A DNA stretch of 20,914 bases, from positions 1 through 20,914 of IMG/VR virus record IMGVR_UViG_3300022907_000864; one strand, given 5' to 3'. The notes below the pieces were generated by a model. The model did not search any database. It was not told where the DNA came from and worked only from the letters and a program-made list of their open reading frames with translations. The translations under genes were made by a program, and so were the position numbers. Shown here piece after piece: positions 2,440 through 14,539 of this stretch. The stretch's first letter is position 1. Each line of letters begins with the position of its first letter. Source of the stretch: a virus.

Positions 2440-2848
2440 TTTGATTTCTCCAATCTTCTACGCTATCTGAATATTTAAGAACGATTAACTCTATATCATT
2501 TAGCTCACACCAGTCTTCCTTTATAAAATCTCTTTTGTTAGATTGCAAGAAGCCCGCCATAGTTTTATGAAAGAATTTACAAAACTCATAATGCTGTCTA
2601 CCGTGAACTTCTATACCAAGCATTAGACTTGGAATAAAGAAGTCTAGGAATAATGCAGACTTCTTACTTGGACATCTTGATCCCGGCAACTTTACTTCTT
2701 CTAAAACTGTATAACCCCTGAACATATCGGTGAGCAATTCTCTTGCCAATATATGATACTTTGATTTAACAGTTTTGTCATTCTTTTTTACGATATATTT
2801 CTTTAAATTTATATTGTACTCACGACCATTTAGACCTACGACTTTCAT
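2426..2848 (-). CDS. Putative PD-(D/E)XK-like (Vsr/DUF559-type) nuclease
   Basis: A 140 aa protein that resembles small restriction-endonuclease-fold nucleases. The core looks like LFLDFFIPSLMLGIEVHG: an Asp (D69) at the end of one strand and a Glu (E80) in the next strand, followed by VHGRQHYE and then a helix with KRDFIKEDWCELNDIELI. In Vsr and DUF559-like proteins this arrangement places metal-binding acidic residues next to a conserved HG and a C-terminal 'K...L...G..v' helix-strand. It could therefore cut DNA intermediates during recombination or repair. ATG at 2848 overlaps the RecA stop as ATGA, so the two are probably co-translated. The fold assignment is an inference from pattern. 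Confidence 0.6.
   Translation of the reverse strand: MKVVGLNGREYNINLKKYIVKKNDKTVKSKYHILARELLTDMFRGYTVLEEVKLPGSRCPSKKSALFLDFFIPSLMLGIEVHGRQHYEFCKFFHKTMAGFLQSNKRDFIKEDWCELNDIELIVLKYSDSVEDWRNQIDSR
2448..2451 (-). promoter_or_regulatory. Ribosome binding site deciding a TTG start
   Basis: The minus strand reads GGAG, eight bases, then TTG (2439-2437). No ATG or GTG occurs at a suitable distance in this frame, so the Shine-Dalgarno sequence argues for a true TTG initiation codon. Confidence 0.6.
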
Positions 2849-6976: not shown

Positions 6977-9196
6977 TTACATATCACACTTGCCGCCAGC
7001 ACAGGCGACTTGTTGAACAGGGTTTACGTTATTAGTTTCTTCGATAACATTTGTAAAGTCTGCATCTTTATATTCTCTGTTAAGATCGACCCACTCTTTC
7101 CAATTATATACATCTTTCATACAATATGTCAACTGTTTTAGGTCTCCTGCGAAGTATTTTTCAGCAAATCTTTCACATCGTTCTTTCCACTCTTTCTTTC
7201 CGTTACCTTTAATCTTTTCGCCAAACCCAAGTAGACTGTCACATGCCGCCCAAAGGTTGTCCTCCCATAGAGTAAGTGCAACCTCGATAAGTCCACTCAC
7301 AAAGATAGAGGCATCGCCGTAGTGTGCGACCTGCTCACTTGGCAGATAGACTGTAGTGAATGGTGCCTGTGGAAAATCTTTATCACCAGAGATAGGAAGC
7401 AATGAAATACCACAAAAGTATTTTCTATTCTTATAAATATATTTCTCTACCTCATCCCATTCATCTGGTTTAACGTTAATAGTATTACTTACATTATGAT
7501 TTAACCAAGGTTGAGTACATAATTCTGGATTTGTACCATTGAGAACCCAACTTTGCTGTGTAGATTTTACATAGTCCAACAACTGTAGTGCGCTCACTTG
7601 GTTTTTAGTTTTGCCGCCATCCTTAACTTCTACACAGAACGATACAACGTCATCACTATCATTATTACTCCAAACACTTTCTTCACACGCTCTTGGGTTT
7701 TGTGTTCTAAAGTAATTATAAATGGGTTCCATTTTGTTTGCTTGGACTCGGCGGATATATCGTTTCGCATGGTGCGGGTGAATACCACTAGATGTTCCAA
7801 GAATACAACTTGATGTTCCTTCTGGTTTAATACATGTGGTTCTTGCTGCTTGGCGAATACCCAGCAGTTCTGCCATTCTAGCGTTTGTTTTCTTTACAAT
7901 ATTAGCGCCGCGCTTCTGTGATGATGGATCAAGACAAACTTCTGCGTTCTCCATCATGCCTGTCATACTAACGCCCAGCAGAGCTTCTCTTGCGATGATT
8001 CGTTCCGACGCACCGCCCAGATACTCAAACTCCGAGAAACCCGCCTGTAGTGTACCAATGATTGTAGCAGCACGGCAAGCATCAAAGAAGTCTTGTTCGG
8101 TTTTTACTTTTGAGCAGTTAATAGTTGATAGGTTACATGCCTGCCATCCAGATTCACCAGTTTCTTCACATACAGGCCACATGCCAATTTCAACACATGG
8201 ATTTACCAGAAGTTCTGTGCTATCCGCCCAAACAAATCCCGGCTCGCCAAACTCTTTAACAGAGTTCATTAGTTCTGCAAATTGTTCTTTTGTTGTTTCA
8301 TCTCGTACAAGTAGCGCAGAATTATTTGATCTTCCTCGCTGGGGATTGTCAATGAACCAAGTTCCTGTTTTAGCCCTTGCCATCTCACTATCGTCAGGAC
8401 TAAATACGCAAATGGTAGCAGAGCGGCGAACGCCACCAGATATAACAGCATCAGCGGTGTGCATAATAATATCATAAGCTTGGATAGGTTTGAGCTTTTT
8501 CTGTCCATCTTTAACTGCTTTATCTAGAATTTTTCTAATGTTTGTTAGAGCATTACGTAGAGGTTCCGGGCCGGGAGCTTTGCCGCCACTTGACTTTAGG
8601 TAAGATCCGGCGGGACGAATTTGACTGTAATCAAAATTAACAGTCTTGCCAGAATATTCACCGAATAGTTCATCTTGTAGATATTGGTCGAAGTAGCTCG
8701 ACACCAAAATGCCTACGGCATCACTCCATCCTTCAATGGTATCTGGAATAACGTATTTTTTACTACCCTCTTTCTTTGGTAGAAGGTCTGGTAGTTTTTC
8801 AATATGGTGTTTTTGTACGGAAAATCCAGTACCACAACCACACAGAAGTAGATACATACATTCTTGGAAGAATCTTACACGGTCGCAGTACGACACAATA
8901 CAATTATACATACGAGCATTGTGCTTGAAGATTGGTGATCCGCCAAACTGTAGCGCGCGCTGTGATCCAAGAACACGCTTCTTCCGCATTTGTTCATATG
9001 CCCACTCTATTTCTTCTGCGAGTTCTGGTTTATATGGATATGTTCCGTTTTCACTTTCTTGGTAAATATATTTATCAAGCATCATTTGCTTGACTCTATC
9101 TACTGCCTCGTTCCAAGTTTCTCGCCTTTTCTTTTCAGGAATCCAACGCGCATACTTACTAACAAATGTATAATCCATTAAAGACTTCAAAGACAT
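6977..9196 (-). CDS. nrdJ: Class II (adenosylcobalamin-dependent) ribonucleotide triphosphate reductase, monomeric type
   Basis: Reduces ribonucleoside triphosphates to dNTPs using a cobalamin-generated cysteinyl radical, so it needs no oxygen and no small subunit. Length is 739 aa, the size of the monomeric RTPR type. Key residues: NPCVEI (332-337) with the radical Cys334 and Glu336; likely reducing pair NC (C99) and ACNL (C354); the C-terminal CAGGKCDM with C732 and C737, which re-reduces the active site. Also visible are CGCGTGFSVQ (119-128), KPEGTSS (457-463) and GIHPHHAKRYIRR (471-483). The ATG has AGGA nine bases upstream. The gap between C334 and C354 is 20 residues, longer than I remember for the Lactobacillus enzyme. 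No intein or intron is visible. It works with the adjacent dUTPase in nucleotide supply. Confidence 0.93.
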   Translation of the reverse strand: MSLKSLMDYTFVSKYARWIPEKKRRETWNEAVDRVKQMMLDKYIYQESENGTYPYKPELAEEIEWAYEQMRKKRVLGSQRALQFGGSPIFKHNARMYNCIVSYCDRVRFFQECMYLLLCGCGTGFSVQKHHIEKLPDLLPKKEGSKKYVIPDTIEGWSDAVGILVSSYFDQYLQDELFGEYSGKTVNFDYSQIRPAGSYLKSSGGKAPGPEPLRNALTNIRKILDKAVKDGQKKLKPIQAYDIIMHTADAVISGGVRRSATICVFSPDDSEMARAKTGTWFIDNPQRGRSNNSALLVRDETTKEQFAELMNSVKEFGEPGFVWADSTELLVNPCVEIGMWPVCEETGESGWQACNLSTINCSKVKTEQDFFDACRAATIIGTLQAGFSEFEYLGGASERIIAREALLGVSMTGMMENAEVCLDPSSQKRGANIVKKTNARMAELLGIRQAARTTCIKPEGTSSCILGTSSGIHPHHAKRYIRRVQANKMEPIYNYFRTQNPRACEESVWSNNDSDDVVSFCVEVKDGGKTKNQVSALQLLDYVKSTQQSWVLNGTNPELCTQPWLNHNVSNTINVKPDEWDEVEKYIYKNRKYFCGISLLPISGDKDFPQAPFTTVYLPSEQVAHYGDASIFVSGLIEVALTLWEDNLWAACDSLLGFGEKIKGNGKKEWKERCERFAEKYFAGDLKQLTYCMKDVYNWKEWVDLNREYKDADFTNVIEETNNVNPVQQVACAGGKCDM

Positions 9197-9230: not shown

Positions 9231-9416
9231 TTATTTTTCTTCTTTTTTCTGAACTATAGACAGCTCAATTCCTTCGCCTATACTGATGACCATTATATCT
9301 TTGCCATCTCTTTTTGTAAAGCTCACCTTATCTAAAATCTTTTTGACTTTATCAACATCTTCTTTTTCAATGTCATATTTGTCAAGAAGTACATCTAAAA
9401 TTTTGTTGATAATCAT
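9231..9416 (-). CDS. Small hypothetical protein
   Basis: A 61 aa protein with no recognisable motif, rich in Asp/Lys/Ile (MIINKILDVLLDKYDIEKED at its start) and predicted to be helix-strand. I start it at the ATG at 9416, which overlaps the stop of the upstream gene as ATGA and has GGAG ten bases upstream; the longer reading would require TTG at 9431. It is the last gene before the RNR and may belong to the membrane-protein block upstream. Confidence 0.6.
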   Translation of the reverse strand: MIINKILDVLLDKYDIEKEDVDKVKKILDKVSFTKRDGKDIMVISIGEGIELSIVQKKEEK

Positions 9417-9880
9417 TGGGTGACACTCCAAGCTACTGCATTTAATATTTCTATCAAGTCGGCTCTTTTATCTTCGTCCATAGGCGCGTCTTGCTTTCCA
9501 ATAGCATTAACAATAGCGAAGTCTATGTTTTCTCCAAGAGAGTCATATTTTCCCAATAGAGATGTATCAAAATGCAACACCCCGGCGAAAGTGTTTAGGT
9601 TTCTAAACTGTCCTGTAGAATCTATTATAGTATCATCTTTGCCAATTACATCAGCTAATTCCAAATAAAATGAAGAAATTAATTTCGCATCTTCTTGCGA
9701 GATTTCAATCTCAGTAATTGGTTTTACAAGCTCTTTATTTTCCAAAGATGGTTCAGTGATAGTATACACAGACCCATCGACAATTTCAACGTTATCTTTC
9801 ACAAATTCAGCGGCTTTTTCACCAAAAAGTCCAACCACAATAACTACTAAAGCTAAGAATATTCTAAGGTTATCACTCAT
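9413..9880 (-). CDS. Membrane-anchored hypothetical protein
   Basis: A 155 aa protein. Residues about 5-22 (LRIFLALVVIVVGLFG) form one hydrophobic segment at the N-terminus, either a signal anchor or an uncleaved signal peptide. The remainder is soluble, acidic and beta/alpha-like, so the C-terminal domain is probably outside the cytoplasm. No catalytic motif. It overlaps its upstream neighbour by 4 nt and is followed by the 61 aa gene as ATGA. It could be an i-spanin-like or host-envelope factor, but there is no coiled coil strong enough to claim this. Sequence supports only 'membrane-anchored'. Confidence 0.7.
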   Translation of the reverse strand: MSDNLRIFLALVVIVVGLFGEKAAEFVKDNVEIVDGSVYTITEPSLENKELVKPITEIEISQEDAKLISSFYLELADVIGKDDTIIDSTGQFRNLNTFAGVLHFDTSLLGKYDSLGENIDFAIVNAIGKQDAPMDEDKRADLIEILNAVAWSVTQ

Positions 9881-10152
9881 AGCACATCCTTTGATTTTGC
9901 AAAAAGAGGAAAGACTTTATGGACTTCTTGTTCGGCCTCAGTTAATCCATGCTTCTTGCATAATTTTTTAAGATTTTCCCAGCACTCTACAACGTCAGTA
10001 AGGCTCTCATCGCCCGGAAGAGGCGGCGGCTCTGGCTTTCCGTGAACGTATCTATCTAAGACTTTACTAAATAAAACCGGCCCAATTAAAAACGCCCCAA
10101 TGCCAAGCATAAACCATTGAAAGAAGCTCAACGCACTAAATAATTCACTCAT
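9877..10152 (-). CDS. Small membrane protein with proline-rich linker
   Basis: A 91 aa protein with one likely transmembrane helix at about residues 11-30 (FQWFMLGIGAFLIGPVLF), then a short linker KPEPPPLPGDES and a helical tail with Cys residues (ECWENLKKLCKKHG). The proline-rich hinge and small size resemble phage envelope or holin-accessory proteins, but I cannot name it. The ATG at 10152 follows the previous stop by 2 nt and has GGAG eight bases upstream. Confidence 0.7.
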   Translation of the reverse strand: MSELFSALSFFQWFMLGIGAFLIGPVLFSKVLDRYVHGKPEPPPLPGDESLTDVVECWENLKKLCKKHGLTEAEQEVHKVFPLFAKSKDVL

Positions 10153-10154
10153 TC

Positions 10155-10478
10155 CTATTCTCCAATATTATTTATAATTTCATTAATTTCCTGTTCAGTT
10201 AGCGCTGGAACAACATCCAAAAATGCCCCATAGAGTGCAGTCCTATCTTCTCTTCGCGCACGCTTTCGTATCTCTCTCTTTAATAACACCTTAAAAAGAA
10301 AAGACGGGTTTTGCAATTCTCCTTTAATGCTTTGTTTATCTTTACAGGCCCACCATAGTTTTATTAGGTTCGTAACGATAGATATTATAATACTAATAGT
10401 GATAGGGTCAATACCGTAATTTCCATCTTTTTTCTGGGCGCTCTCTGATATTCTTTCTGCTAAATTTTCTATACTCAT
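10155..10478 (-). CDS. Small membrane protein
   Basis: A 107 aa protein with a hydrophobic segment at about residues 25-45 (DPITISIIISIVTNLIKLWW), followed by a very basic region (KREIRKRARRED) and an acidic C-terminus. By the positive-inside rule the basic part would face the cytoplasm. The end (PALTEQEINEIINNIGE) is amphipathic. Function unknown. The ATG overlaps the lipoprotein stop by one base (TAATG) and has AGGAG nine bases upstream. Confidence 0.7.
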   Translation of the reverse strand: MSIENLAERISESAQKKDGNYGIDPITISIIISIVTNLIKLWWACKDKQSIKGELQNPSFLFKVLLKREIRKRARREDRTALYGAFLDVVPALTEQEINEIINNIGE

Positions 10479-10930
10479 TACCTATGTCTCCTAAATAGTC
10501 CTCTTGACCTATCTTGATTAGTTTGTACCGCTGGCTTTTCTTCGACTATTATTTCCTGTATCGGTTCTGGCTCGACCACCACTTCAGGCTCAGGCTCTTC
10601 CTCAATCGGAATTTTAAATTCTTCTAATATTTGTGGAATGTCTAGTAGCGTATCTGTTGACCATTCTATTTCTGGCATGTCGCCAGCAGATTTACAGGCA
10701 TCGCATCCGGGACATTCTGTTTTGTGTCCGTCTCCCTGTATTATCCAGCCCGAACCATCGCACCCTTCTTCAACAATCTCATCTGTGATGACGTTATATT
10801 CTATTATAGCATCGGCAAGTCTTGTTGCAATATAGGCTCTGTATTCTGGATCGCTTTGCCACTCACTATTTTTTGTTTCTGCACATCCGACAAATAAAAC
10901 AAGCACAATCAAAGTCGATAGATATTTCAT
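10478..10930 (-). CDS. Putative lipoprotein with DnaJ-like cysteine cluster
   Basis: A 150 aa protein. The N-terminus is a typical lipoprotein signal: MK, a hydrophobic stretch (residues 4-14), then VGC with the lipidated Cys at residue 16. The middle holds CDGSGWIIQGDGHKTEC followed by PGCDAC (C57, C73, C76, C79), which resembles a DnaJ-type CxGxG zinc site. The C-terminal third has an acidic Pro/Glu/Val repeat region (EPEPEVVVEPEP, residues 113-123) that may span the periplasm. It ends in basic GLFRRHR. The DnaJ-like cysteines outside the cytoplasm are unusual. A secreted redox, envelope or spanin-like role is possible; none is proven. The ATG has AGGA six bases upstream; the papain-like gene ends 9 nt before. 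Confidence 0.8.
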   Translation of the reverse strand: MKYLSTLIVLVLFVGCAETKNSEWQSDPEYRAYIATRLADAIIEYNVITDEIVEEGCDGSGWIIQGDGHKTECPGCDACKSAGDMPEIEWSTDTLLDIPQILEEFKIPIEEEPEPEVVVEPEPIQEIIVEEKPAVQTNQDRSRGLFRRHR

Positions 10931-10939
10931 CTTTCTATC

Positions 10940-11863
10940 CTATAAAAATTTTGTAGTTCCGTAATCTGGTAGTTCTCTCGCTGGAAATCCATCTACATCG
11001 CTAAATACCCAAGCTCCCTTTTGAGCCAACATGCCTCTTGCGTCTTTTTCCCTAATCCAAAAGCTACCATCTGGCTGTTCATGGATTTTTGGGCCGCTAT
11101 TCCATTTACCCCAACTATTCTGTACTAAGAATAATGTTTCTTTAAATCTTTCTTGGGTGTCGTCGCAAGCGATCCAACACATCGCGTGACTCCAGCCTTT
11201 CGATCTTGCTGCAATTCCTTTAGCATCTCTTCTACTAGAGAATCCATAACTAGAACAAACAGAAATACCGTAACCATTAGCAAGTGCATCTCGCGCCTCC
11301 TGTATAGTAGTTATAAGAGATATGGTTTTAACTTGATGTTTTCTTGCCTCTTTTGTATAAATGTCAAATGGTATTTTATGTTTAGCACCAAGACTTGAAT
11401 CATATTTAGATAGATCGACAATGCCGTAGTCTTTTCTTAATAAGATGCCACCATTTTCATGAACATATTTTGCAGCAGTAGAACACATCATGCCCTGTTT
11501 TTTGTGTCCTCTGCTTTGGTAGATGGCTTCTGTTGCACCTCTGGCAACAAACTGCTCCATATCTCCCTTTACGTCTATCTCTACGCTTCTTGTTATGTCT
11601 ATAGCGTTTCTAGTGGCGTGAGATACGCAGTCGCCAGTTGTTTGACGTTCTGACGGCCCAAAACTGGGGTCGAACTTTAATAAAGATTTAAACGGGAGAG
11701 AGAGTTTCCCTTCTCCATCTCCCCATAATTGGTATGCGGCAGCTCCGAATAGTGGATTTTTAAGCTCGCCAAGCAGTCTTGCGACTTCTTTTTTGTCACA
11801 CTCTGCGCCTTTAAATCCTTCACGATAAGCGTTTAAAAGCTCGCGTGGCGTTTTAAAATCCAT
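10940..11863 (-). CDS. Papain-like (C1-type) cysteine protease
   Basis: A 307 aa protein that carries the papain-family catalytic residues in the expected order: Q74 (oxyanion hole) and C79 in RQTTGDCVSHA (73-82), H226 in WSHAMCW (224-230), and N249 in VQNSWGKWNSG (247-257). The Asn-Ser-Trp-Gly motif is a classic papain signature. No signal peptide or membrane segment is visible, so the enzyme acts in the cytoplasm or is exported by a holin-like route. Possible roles are cleavage of envelope or wall peptides at lysis, processing of virion proteins, or attack on host proteins. It sits between a holin-like gene and a lipoprotein gene, which favours a lysis or exit role. The ATG has AGGA seven bases upstream. 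Confidence 0.85.
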   Translation of the reverse strand: MDFKTPRELLNAYREGFKGAECDKKEVARLLGELKNPLFGAAAYQLWGDGEGKLSLPFKSLLKFDPSFGPSERQTTGDCVSHATRNAIDITRSVEIDVKGDMEQFVARGATEAIYQSRGHKKQGMMCSTAAKYVHENGGILLRKDYGIVDLSKYDSSLGAKHKIPFDIYTKEARKHQVKTISLITTIQEARDALANGYGISVCSSYGFSSRRDAKGIAARSKGWSHAMCWIACDDTQERFKETLFLVQNSWGKWNSGPKIHEQPDGSFWIREKDARGMLAQKGAWVFSDVDGFPARELPDYGTTKFL

Positions 11864-11872
11864 GATACAGTC

Positions 11873-12082
11873 CTATTCTGCTGCGTTATTTTTCATCCAT
11901 TTAATTGCAGTATCAAGACCTACTGCGATAATCGGAACTACAAGAGGACCATATGTTCCAAGGTCGATAGTCCCAAGACTTTGCGCAACAACGGTAAGCG
12001 CGGCAGCGCCACCAACAAGAGCCGCATTTTTGCCAACACCGATAATGTCAGACCAGTTCAATTTGAATTTAGCTGAACCCAT
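11873..12082 (-). CDS. Small two-helix membrane protein, holin-like
   Basis: A 69 aa protein with two hydrophobic segments (about residues 17-36, GKNAALVGGAAALTVVAQSL, and 44-62, YGPLVVPIIAVGLDTAIKW). There is a short basic N-terminal stretch (KFKLN) and a charged end (KWMKNNAAE). Size and topology match many phage holins, but holins share little sequence and two-helix proteins of this size have other roles, so this is a structural guess. It lies 9 nt upstream of the papain-like protease gene, and a holin next to a hydrolase is a common phage arrangement. The ATG has AGGAG six bases upstream, and the previous stop is 1 nt away. Confidence 0.6.
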   Translation of the reverse strand: MGSAKFKLNWSDIIGVGKNAALVGGAAALTVVAQSLGTIDLGTYGPLVVPIIAVGLDTAIKWMKNNAAE

Positions 12083-12083
12083 T

Positions 12084-12638
12084 TCATTCTCCTATTTTTA
12101 AATAAACTAAAAAACCGTGATTTTTCTTTTCTCCCCTATATGGGAAACCGTGTAAACATATAGATGTACCGTCCATTGATACAGTTTTTATTTTTATTTC
12201 TCTATTACCCTTTGAGCAAGATTCAAACTCATGTAACACATGATGTCTTTCTGGCTCATCTACAATATTAACCCAGTCAAGTCCTTTAAATTCTTTGTAG
12301 TCTGTTGCCTCTTTGAATTTTTCATTTGACCAAAGAAAATCTCCTGTGCTACTTATCTCAAAAATTGGCTGCTCAAAGTTGTAAAATATAGCTTTTGATC
12401 TATGGTCTACTGTTATTTGCCTGCTTTCTATTCTGTTGATAGCATCTTTTATAGACGATCCACCATTGGTAGTTAGTTCGTGTTTTATTTCTTTAATGCT
12501 ACACACTAAATAATCATGCCCCTTGACCATTTTAGCCACAGGTTTTATTATTTTTTTCCAAATAAGAGCCGCAAGCCAAACGCAAACTGGTATAATAACA
12601 ACCTCAATTATCATAATTAATATATCGGTAATGCTCAT
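12084..12638 (-). CDS. Membrane-anchored PAS-domain protein
   Basis: A 184 aa protein with one N-terminal transmembrane segment (about 4-28: DILIMIIEVVIIPVCVWLA), a basic/coiled linker with KKIIKPVAKMVKGHD and KEIKHELTTN, and a C-terminal PAS-like fold. The PAS region (about residues 85-184) reads IFYNFEQPIFEISSTGDFLW, then SNEKFKEATDY and a later GFPYRGEKKNHGFLVYL. These are the usual PAS features: an N-cap strand, a helix with the N/E.F pattern, and a late beta-strand. No kinase, HAMP or output domain follows, so it would sense or bind something without visible output. I start at ATG 12638 because AAGG precedes it, rather than at TTG 12668 which lies inside the terminator. It directly precedes the holin-like gene by 1 nt. 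Confidence 0.65.
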   Translation of the reverse strand: MSITDILIMIIEVVIIPVCVWLAALIWKKIIKPVAKMVKGHDYLVCSIKEIKHELTTNGGSSIKDAINRIESRQITVDHRSKAIFYNFEQPIFEISSTGDFLWSNEKFKEATDYKEFKGLDWVNIVDEPERHHVLHEFESCSKGNREIKIKTVSMDGTSICLHGFPYRGEKKNHGFLVYLKIGE

Positions 12639-12652
12639 TTTACACCTTGGCG

Positions 12653-12685
12653 AAAAAGGGGCTGGCAACTATTGCCGCCAACCCC
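12653..12685 (-). terminator. Strong Rho-independent terminator after the structural-protein gene
   Basis: On the minus strand, GGGGTTGGC (12685-12677) pairs with GCCAGCCCC (12666-12658) in a nine-base stem with one G-U pair, and is followed by TTTTT (12657-12653). It sits 27 nt after the stop of the gene at 12712-13380 and just before the ribosome binding site of the PAS gene. This is the clearest terminator in the window. Some read-through or a separate promoter must exist to express the downstream membrane block. Confidence 0.85.
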
Positions 12686-12711: not shown

Positions 12712-13380
12712 TTACTTACCAGTAATTGGCTTGTAGTCGAAGAAGTCGCCGCCAGAACTTACGTCCGTGGTAACGAAGTCAACTTTCATAACCAATTCGC
12801 CCGGAATAGCTCTGCTTGGATTTGCAGCGCTGTCTGCTGCTCTATCCGATTCATTGCCATCCGCGATGTCGTGCATGTTCTCGTTCAATGCTACTGGAGC
12901 CTGAGCAGCGGTTCCGCCAGCGTTCAACCAGATTAGTCTGGAGAGGTTTGACGAACCGTTTGCCTTGGTTCCGGTCAAGGTGTACTGACCAGCTCTAAAC
13001 TTGGTCAAAGTCTTAGCACCAAAGGAGTGTTCAAACTGATGAATCGAGCGACGAGTGTTGGAATCCGATCCCGGAATCAACATTTTCGTGCCAGCCACGC
13101 CAGAAAGAGTAGTGCTAATTGTACGGATGACATAGTTGCCAGCCGAACTATATGCGAAAGTTCCGCCGCTCAAAGCCTTGGTATTTGCAACAAGACCGTT
13201 TGCTGCTTCTACTGGCCCCGGAGTCTTGCCGAAATCAGAAGCGTTGTCTTTGAGTGACGAAGCTCTAGTGATAACATCGCCAGTGGTGATGTTTCCAAGA
13301 ATTGTTCCGCCCTGAGATTGGGCCGAAAACGATCCACCAGTAGTATTGACTAGGTGGCTATTGCTACTAGGAACTGCCAT
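12712..13380 (-). CDS. Putative abundant virion structural protein
   Basis: A 222 aa protein with a composition typical of phage capsid, decoration or tail proteins: rich in Gly, Ser, Ala, Thr and Asn, no cysteine, and few charges at the N-terminus (MAVPSSNSHLVNTTGG). Beta-strand-like stretches alternate with turns (YVIRTISTTLSG, QYTLTGTK, LVMKVDFVTTDV). It ends DFFDYKPITGK. The gene has its own 87 nt leader, a GGAG ribosome site, and a strong terminator directly after it, so it forms a single-gene unit. Its base composition looks visibly less AT-rich than its neighbours, consistent with high expression. The precise role (decoration, head fibre, tail tube) is not recognised. Confidence 0.65.
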   Translation of the reverse strand: MAVPSSNSHLVNTTGGSFSAQSQGGTILGNITTGDVITRASSLKDNASDFGKTPGPVEAANGLVANTKALSGGTFAYSSAGNYVIRTISTTLSGVAGTKMLIPGSDSNTRRSIHQFEHSFGAKTLTKFRAGQYTLTGTKANGSSNLSRLIWLNAGGTAAQAPVALNENMHDIADGNESDRAADSAANPSRAIPGELVMKVDFVTTDVSSGGDFFDYKPITGK

Positions 13381-13467
13381 TATAAGTTCTCCATGTAAAA
13401 GTGATGAAATAAACTACAATTTTCCAAATCCGATATAAAGTCCAGTTCCTAGATTGATATACACAAT
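13381..13467 (-). promoter_or_regulatory. Leader of the structural-protein gene; probable promoter region
   Basis: This 87 nt stretch is the largest gap between genes and precedes the single-gene unit that ends in the strong terminator. On the minus strand it is AT-rich, with TATATC and TTTATATCG elements and GGAG nine bases before the start ATG at 13380. I cannot place a matched -35/-10 pair with confidence. A promoter used by the phage sigma factor encoded just upstream is plausible. Confidence 0.35.
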
Positions 13468-13929
13468 TCAGATTTCAATCTTGTTATTGTTTTTGTAAAA
13501 TTTAACCGCTTTTGCTACTTTTCTTCTGGCTGTTTCTCGACTATATCCATTTTGTTTTCCAATCTCATTCATCGTCATATTATATACATATTTTTGTTCT
13601 AACAGGGACGCATATTCTTTTGGTATGCCATCAAAAACATCTATAAGATTAGAGGATCTAGACACAGTATTTACTTCAATAGTTTCGGTTGCAAATTCTC
13701 TGATTCTCTTTTTTAGCTCGTTTTTGAAAGCGAACACTAGATTTTGATATAAGAACGAAGTAAACTTAGTGCCTCTTTTTGGATCGTACTTCTTAGCACA
13801 TTCCCAAAGAGTATTTAGTTTAATAGAGTCTAGCTGATCTGGGTCAATAGATCTATATCTAGCTCCAACCGCGTTCATTATTCCCACTACATTAGAATCA
13901 TTCAAAAGCTCGTTCATTTTGCTGTCCAT
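13468..13929 (-). CDS. Phage sigma factor (gp55-like, region 2 and region 4 only)
   Basis: A 153 aa RNA polymerase sigma factor that would redirect host polymerase to phage promoters, probably late genes. A sigma region 2-like part spans about 30-75 (TLWECAKKYDPKRGTKFTSFLYQNLVFAFKNELKKR broken across these residues, with the conserved YDPKRGTKFTSF pattern of core-binding helices). A region 4-like HTH spans about 105-150 (EYASLLEQKYVYNMTMNEIG, then SRETARRKVAKAVKFYK). Regions 1 and 3 are absent, as in T4 gp55 and ECF-type factors. I use ATG 13929, which has GAGGAG five bases upstream; a GTG at 13935 would lie on top of it. It overlaps the upstream gene by 32 nt. Confidence 0.8.
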   Translation of the reverse strand: MDSKMNELLNDSNVVGIMNAVGARYRSIDPDQLDSIKLNTLWECAKKYDPKRGTKFTSFLYQNLVFAFKNELKKRIREFATETIEVNTVSRSSNLIDVFDGIPKEYASLLEQKYVYNMTMNEIGKQNGYSRETARRKVAKAVKFYKNNNKIEI

Positions 13930-14539
13930 TATCACTCCTCAAAATTATTCCACCAAAGTTATTTTTCTTATCTATTAACGAACTCAGAGCATCAAGGTAC
14001 TCTGCGTTTACTTCATTTGCTACAACATATTCTATTTTACCCTCTGGATAAACCAATATAGACCAAAACTTATTATCTTTTAACTGACCTTTTAATAGAT
14101 CCACAGTTTCTTGTATTCCATCGTTTGAAAATATCTCGTTCTCAGTATAAGAACATATCCTCTCATTGATTTGATTTCTCACATCTCTTATATCAAAAAG
14201 TTTAGCAACGCCTATAAAAAATGAGTATTTACCCATGATCTTTAGCGCCTCAATCCCGTCGATTTGTGTGTTTAGTACATCTGATATACTTCCTGTTATC
14301 GGAAAATTAGTGTGTGCTATCCAGCAATCCCATCTATCAGACGGTTTTAGTATGGAGTCCTCTGGATATGCCCCCATTGGAGTATATATCAGCCTAGACT
14401 GAACAGGTATAAAGAAGTCTGGCGAGACCTGCTCTTCACTCATCTCATAAGAAGGCTCCTGCTGCGGAATTTCTTTTTCTTCTTCCGGCGACATTTTAGC
14501 GTTCCAGCTTTCCCATAGTATTTTTTTCTTGGAATCCAT
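13898..14539 (-). CDS. Hypothetical phage protein
   Basis: A 213 aa soluble acidic protein of unknown function. The N-terminal 45 residues are disordered and Glu/Pro-rich (EEEKEIPQQEPSYEMSEEQ). The main body begins near FFIPVQSRLIYTPMG and includes SDRWDCWIAHTNFPIT, a helical stretch with KIMGKYSFFIGVAKLFDIRDV, and a C-terminal segment with KFWSILVYPEGKIEYVV. The fold looks alpha/beta. The ATG has AGGG at a suitable distance. It overlaps the sigma gene at its end, so it may be co-expressed with it. Confidence 0.7.
   Translation of the reverse strand: MDSKKKILWESWNAKMSPEEEKEIPQQEPSYEMSEEQVSPDFFIPVQSRLIYTPMGAYPEDSILKPSDRWDCWIAHTNFPITGSISDVLNTQIDGIEALKIMGKYSFFIGVAKLFDIRDVRNQINERICSYTENEIFSNDGIQETVDLLKGQLKDNKFWSILVYPEGKIEYVVANEVNAEYLDALSSLIDKKNNFGGIILRSDNGQQNERAFE
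13935..13940 (-). promoter_or_regulatory. Ribosome binding site deciding the sigma-factor start
   Basis: GAGGAG lies five bases before ATG 13929-13927. A more upstream GTG at 13935-13933 would have no spacer, so the ATG is the better start. The site is inside the upstream coding sequence. Confidence 0.6.

Follow-up and report, generated by a model that had tools for sequence, protein, structure and literature searches.

A papain-fold cysteine protease in a holin-type, late-type operon of uncultivated marine phages: a candidate proteolytic lysin

A papain-fold cysteine protease (PROT) is encoded between a holin-like gene and a lipobox-protein gene in the 20.9-kb virus record analyzed here (the window, i.e., the whole stretch of DNA), raising the question of what such an enzyme does for a phage. 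At least one recognised lytic protein is present in 97.4% of dsDNA phages (PMC12596118), and the classification of papain-like enzymes puts phage lysins in CHAP and related groups (PMC10318531). None of the papers searched describes a C1-type lysin linked to a holin. The data below give good support for a papain-fold protease encoded in a holin-type, late-type operon. PROT is probably (roughly 55%) the lytic enzyme of this late lysis operon, acting by proteolysis. The features of the locus are collected in Table 1.

Table 1. Features of the PROT operon and its surroundings (window coordinates), and tmRNA genes of three large relatives (coordinates of the sequence named).
Feature	Coordinates	Strand	Remarks
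N-terminally anchored protein	9413..9880	minus	155 aa; conserved, both locus types
N-terminally anchored protein	9877..10152	minus	91 aa; both locus types, 53/58 loci
Single-TM protein	10155..10478	minus	107 aa; conserved in type A loci (36 loci)
Lipobox protein	10478..10930	minus	DnaJ-like Cys motif CDGSGW..GDGHKTECPGC; C-terminal thioredoxin domain frequent among relatives
PROT, papain-fold cysteine protease	10940..11863	minus	ATG start, 307 aa; no signal peptide, no TM segment
Type A holin-like protein	11873..12082	minus	69 aa with two hydrophobic segments; adjoins PROT on its upstream side in type A loci
PAS-like protein	12084..12638	minus	N-terminal membrane anchor; PF13426, E 7.9e-5
Intrinsic-terminator-like hairpin with T tract	12653..12685	minus	between first gene and lysis-like genes; z -5.2
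Gly/Ser/Thr-rich protein	12712..13380	minus	222 aa; first gene of the operon, no function assigned
Core of late-type promoter	13458..13464	minus	TTGTGTATAT in window, GTGTATAAT in most relatives
Sigma-factor-like protein	13468..13935	minus	just upstream of operon; phrog_351, E 1.6e-8
tmRNA, G001 (L151)	53226-53531		
tmRNA, G003 (L162)	95175-95369		
tmRNA, G005 (in L200)	2499-2842		

The PROT reading frame has exactly the limits given in the initial annotation, which had left out the strand. The catalytic set proposed there, Q74, C79, H226, and N249 with the NSWG motif, is found at these positions and does not vary in any of the 81 aligned sequences, including each of N249, S, W251, and G252. 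A divergent subfamily, 37–38% identical to the window protein, retains Cys, His, and Asn (sequences C13, L298, L312, L331), and its member L336 has NTWG in place of NSWG. The catalytic residues are thus kept among the relatives, and their loss in all of them, named earlier as grounds for giving up the assignment, is not observed. PROT is under purifying selection, with dN/dS of 0.03–0.12 against close relatives, and is therefore a functional gene. In papain, the oxyanion Gln is located six residues before the catalytic Cys. The invariant Gln of PROT precedes it by five (81/81), and the intervening loop is likely shorter by one residue than that of papain. Hydrophobic segments of TM or signal type are absent from PROT in all 58 loci compared, as predicted for a holin-dependent lysin of the non-SAR type.

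Searches of Pfam, PHROGs, and PDB sequences with the window PROT gave no match, and PF00112 is detected in PROT relatives at E 0.0027–0.0048, below the gathering score. The AlphaFold2 model of PROT (pLDDT 71.7, pTM 0.75) has 180 Foldseek matches at E<=0.001, among which C1A proteases rank first; the top match is xylellain (E 3.6e-9), followed by cathepsins and other papain-family proteases. In a DALI-like comparison (VIA), the model aligns with xylellain 3ois at Z 18.3 over 219 residues. The name "papain family," used in the initial annotation, is therefore borne out by the fold rather than by a sequence profile, for which support is weak. As modeled, PROT has a C1-like fold and active site and is not a formal PF00112 member.

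Xylellain (PDB 3OIS; peptidase family C1A) has the fold, the Cys-His-Asn order, and the NSWG motif in common with PROT, as well as an N-terminal extension preceding the catalytic domain. The two proteins are ~20% identical, and PROT differs in having the oxyanion Gln one residue nearer to Cys and in lacking a signal peptide. PROT is, moreover, phage-encoded and lies within a holin-containing operon. The C1A protease Cwp84 (PDB 4D59; Z 16.8) also has the PROT fold and processes the precursor of a bacterial S-layer, a protein-envelope substrate, but it is cellular and secreted, and its function is processing, not lysis. Baculovirus V-cath is a virus-encoded C1A protease which aids host dissolution late in infection; unlike PROT, it is a secreted zymogen acting on insect tissue. 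Proteins of uncultured phages named "Peptidase C1A" (BFVD, e.g., A0A6J5TCZ4, A0A6J5QDM8) have the same fold as PROT at only 15–17% identity.

PROT has 116 close relatives in IMG/VR viral contigs, and relatives are present on at least 589 viral contigs; a collection of 50,697 phage records contains no match even at E 10. In ~790 cellular genomes of two classes, homologs are found on phage contigs only, and PROT as a cellular or host gene is rejected. The carriers are marine phages that form an abundant group without cultivated members. Their ribonucleotide reductase (RNR) is up to 49% identical to that of cultured relatives, and terminase and helicase only ~25%, so no cultured phage reveals the host.

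The immediate neighbors are as first described, a holin-like ORF upstream and a lipobox protein downstream. Neighborhoods were compared in 58 PROT loci, with 2.6 kb required on each side, and N-terminally anchored membrane proteins adjoin PROT in all of them. In most loci, the N-terminus of the protein encoded directly downstream of PROT is hydrophobic; this protein also has a DnaJ-like (zinc-motif) Cys pattern around GDGH. It carries a WCxPC thioredoxin-type motif in 21 of 57 loci and, in L312, a C-terminal thioredoxin domain (PF00085, E 6.8e-9). For the PAS-like gene, the ORF caller chose a start at 12668, a TTG that falls within the terminator.

Small holin-like proteins fall into two unrelated types, and one of them is located beside PROT in 44 of 45 dereplicated loci: type A in 24, type B in 20, neither in one, and both in none. 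Type A proteins (~70 aa) are encoded upstream of PROT and type B proteins (~60 aa) downstream. The best PHROG matches of type B are three holin families, phrog_297, phrog_9987, and phrog_4712 (E 0.006–0.09), and type A has no holin match in PHROGs or Pfam; both types are putative holins. The PROT operon resembles the holin-endolysin cassette of dsDNA phages in having a leaderless hydrolase next to a small protein with two TM segments, a late-type promoter, and anchored accessory proteins. It differs in that its enzyme is a papain-type protease, in which Pfam and PHROG searches recognised no peptidoglycan-hydrolase domain and no wall-binding domain was found.

Genome context was taken from three large relatives, G001 (174 kb), G003 (167 kb), and G005 (138.5 kb), of which G001 and G005 were also scanned against Pfam. 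The PROT operon begins with a promoter of GTGTATA(AT) type, a motif class shared with operons for head and tail. There, the motif TTTTGTGTATAAT is located upstream in both G001 and G003, and the core GTGTATAAT is present in 11 copies in G001 vs 2.3 expected from base composition, and in 18 copies in G003 vs 2.6 expected. In each genome, one copy precedes the PROT operon's first gene by 76–80 nt; in G001, the late motif thus stands before this first gene and not immediately before PROT. Among 25 distinct type A upstream regions, the exact 9-mer GTGTATAAT occurs in 17 and GTGTATA in all 25, and in some type B loci the core is found ~380 nt upstream of PROT. The motif common to this operon and the virion operons suggests that PROT is expressed late. 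Because the core in G005 precedes an RNR gene, not structural or virion genes, this could be a middle-late promoter class, or one that differs in the G005 branch. Judged from sequence, the sigma-factor-like protein is a possible regulator of late genes, and the hairpin after the first gene a possible attenuator, as if setting lower expression downstream.

The core status of PROT was addressed with phoH as anchor, which picks loci independently of PROT, instead of with head-gene relatives, whose contigs end before the PROT region. PROT is present in nine of 11 phoH-anchored loci of sufficient length (seven distinct; three represent one virus) and absent from two (L333 and L334). In these two, other hydrolases stand where PROT would be, again following the PAS-like protein. 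One replacement gene encodes a C92 permuted papain-like amidase (PF05708, E 0.001–0.0017), relatives of which were found on six contigs. The product of the other combines a secreted trypsin-like protease (PF13365, E 3e-13 to 4e-12) with a thioredoxin-like domain in one fusion protein (L333 3467-5386; L334 1335-3212), an unusual domain pairing. A slot that exchanges sets of envelope-type hydrolases, with proteolysis and thioredoxin in common, would show the behavior of a lysis or envelope-attack module.

A classical endolysin was sought by Pfam scans in batches, covering nearly all G001 genes (except its block of sugar genes and its small ORFs at 26–38 kb) and those G005 genes that have no G001 relative. 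Two of the four scans comprise the best 25 families, to E ~1e-5 in one and ~5e-4 in the other. Among the Pfam families listed for G001 and G005, there is no lysozyme, amidase, transglycosylase, CHAP, NlpC, M15, or M23; a divergent or novel peptidoglycan hydrolase could be missed by Pfam. The "lysis-like position" of the initial annotation has gained strength from the late-type promoter, the interchangeable holin-like partner, the anchored neighbors, the replacement by other hydrolases, and the lack of a recognised peptidoglycan hydrolase in the genomes scanned; lysis itself we still infer.

As a proteolytic lysin, PROT would be synthesised late and without a signal sequence, and its small holin-like neighbor would let it out across the membrane. 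There it would take the host envelope apart by proteolysis, with proteins of the surface layer or of other parts of the envelope being likelier targets than peptidoglycan cross-links. The anchored zinc-motif and thioredoxin proteins could act in the same space, either breaking disulfides or keeping the catalytic Cys reduced. An active papain-like enzyme without a leader would need inhibition until lysis, for which a pro-region is only a possibility. This scheme presumes the holin function, the release of PROT at lysis, its activity as a protease, its substrate, and what the thioredoxin does.

Two PROT contigs were binned in one SAR202 (Dehalococcoidia) MAG, among 393 Dehalococcoidia genomes, and others in one Bacteroidia (Flavobacteriales) MAG of 395 and in one Lokiarchaeota MAG. 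SAR202 bacteria have S-layers and no peptidoglycan (PMC10444878, PMC11994032), and a SAR202 host would fit a protease lysin. Among these phages, five genomes (G001, G002, G003, G007, G008) have a permuted tmRNA made of two pieces (RF04321), and the type B genome G005 has a tmRNA of one piece (RF00023, E 5e-41). The permuted form has no match over the cut-off in other sampled Dehalococcoidia, so SAR202, suggested by the two contigs in one MAG, is not supported by this test. Binning of phage contigs into MAGs is weak evidence, the clues conflict, and no host is claimed here; a peptidoglycan-free host is not established because the MAG bins disagree and the permuted tmRNA is unmatched in Dehalococcoidia.

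The same operon evidence would serve conventional endolysin chemistry, in which PROT is a papain-fold endopeptidase that, as CHAP or NlpC/P60 lysins do, cuts the peptide cross-links of peptidoglycan, but on a C1-type scaffold. Phage proteins of the same fold are named "Peptidoglycan binding-like" (A0A6J5MXS7) and "N acetylmuramidase" (A0A8S5PQA2), the replacement locus includes the C92 papain-like amidase (PF05708, E 0.001), and the permuted tmRNA is compatible with ordinary murein-bearing hosts. This reading is nevertheless unlikely: PROT has no wall-binding domain that could be found, its fold and NSWG motif are those of protein-cutting C1A proteases, and some of the activities encoded by its neighbors and by the replacement genes are directed at proteins (trypsin-like protease, thioredoxin). 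Proteolysis of envelope proteins by PROT is more likely than cleavage of peptidoglycan.

The PROT block holds the sigma-like factor, RNR, and phoH, and is separate from the head and tail genes. In the window, the RNR (6977-9196) is of a single, B12-dependent-like type with no NrdB adjoining, and relatives have NrdA plus NrdB at the matching locus. Secreted trypsin-like proteases recur in the lineage outside the PROT module (G001 81797-82756; G005 136166-136849; L115, upstream of PROT). DUF1501 proteins, most with twin-arginine-like signals, number two to three per genome (G001 23356-24639 and 82759-84000; G005 101261-106222), and a MotA/TolQ/ExbB match (PF01618) among G001 proteins likely comes from a run of small membrane proteins at 19925-21671.

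With PROT lying among nucleotide-metabolism and replication genes and lacking an export signal, it might stay in the cytoplasm late in infection and degrade host or regulatory proteins, supplying amino acids or tuning late expression, its membrane neighbors being incidental. Such a role is improbable, given that anchored proteins and one of two holin-like proteins constantly accompany PROT across rearranged loci, and that the replacement set in L333 and L334 includes a secreted protease.

Head genes of the large relatives comprise terminase, portal, a protease/scaffold fusion, and capsid, of which capsid and terminase are only remotely similar to those of cultured phages. The fusion is a 488-aa gene of assemblin-like protease/scaffold type between portal and capsid genes; herpesvirus assemblins are the first four matches of its N-terminal model, weakly (best E 0.019). 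Prohead proteases are expected beside portal and capsid, where G001 and G005 have this other gene, and are expected to be serine proteases of the herpesvirus-assemblin, HK97, or T4 gp21 type, whereas PROT has a papain fold with Cys-His-Asn. PROT homologs are not among the head genes, a location that, if exclusive, the initial annotation had named as grounds against its reading. Its alternative that PROT matures virion proteins is weakened accordingly, and PROT as a head-maturation protease is rejected as the main reading. A role of PROT in the virion, whether in processing head or tail proteins or as a packaged, injected protease, is the least probable account. In its favor are a promoter class common to this operon and virion genes and a first gene that could encode a virion protein; against it are a location outside the head and tail clusters of G001 and G005 and a head cluster with a protease-type gene of its own.

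PeiW and PeiP, pseudomurein endoisopeptidases of methanogen viruses, are cysteine peptidases lysing hosts with a non-murein wall, and we know of no holin identified in these systems. Like PROT, they are viral cysteine peptidases; unlike PROT, they belong to another peptidase family and have another substrate. They have been discussed as viral lysis enzymes for non-murein walls, together with the hypothesis that a holin and an S-layer protease would serve for hosts without peptidoglycan, no such enzyme being known at that time (PMC4456609). It is a tentative and rather doubtful extension of the proteolytic-lysin reading that this marine phage lineage lyses protein-walled hosts, e.g., S-layer bacteria without peptidoglycan, by means of a holin, a papain-type protease, and an envelope thioredoxin. 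Phage lysis is taught as the cutting of peptidoglycan, and the exit of tailed viruses from protein-walled hosts is an open question. If true, lysis by holin and protease would be the proteolytic counterpart of the holin-endolysin system, and the holin-linked protease, widespread in ocean phages, is a concrete, testable candidate and possibly a new class of lysins.
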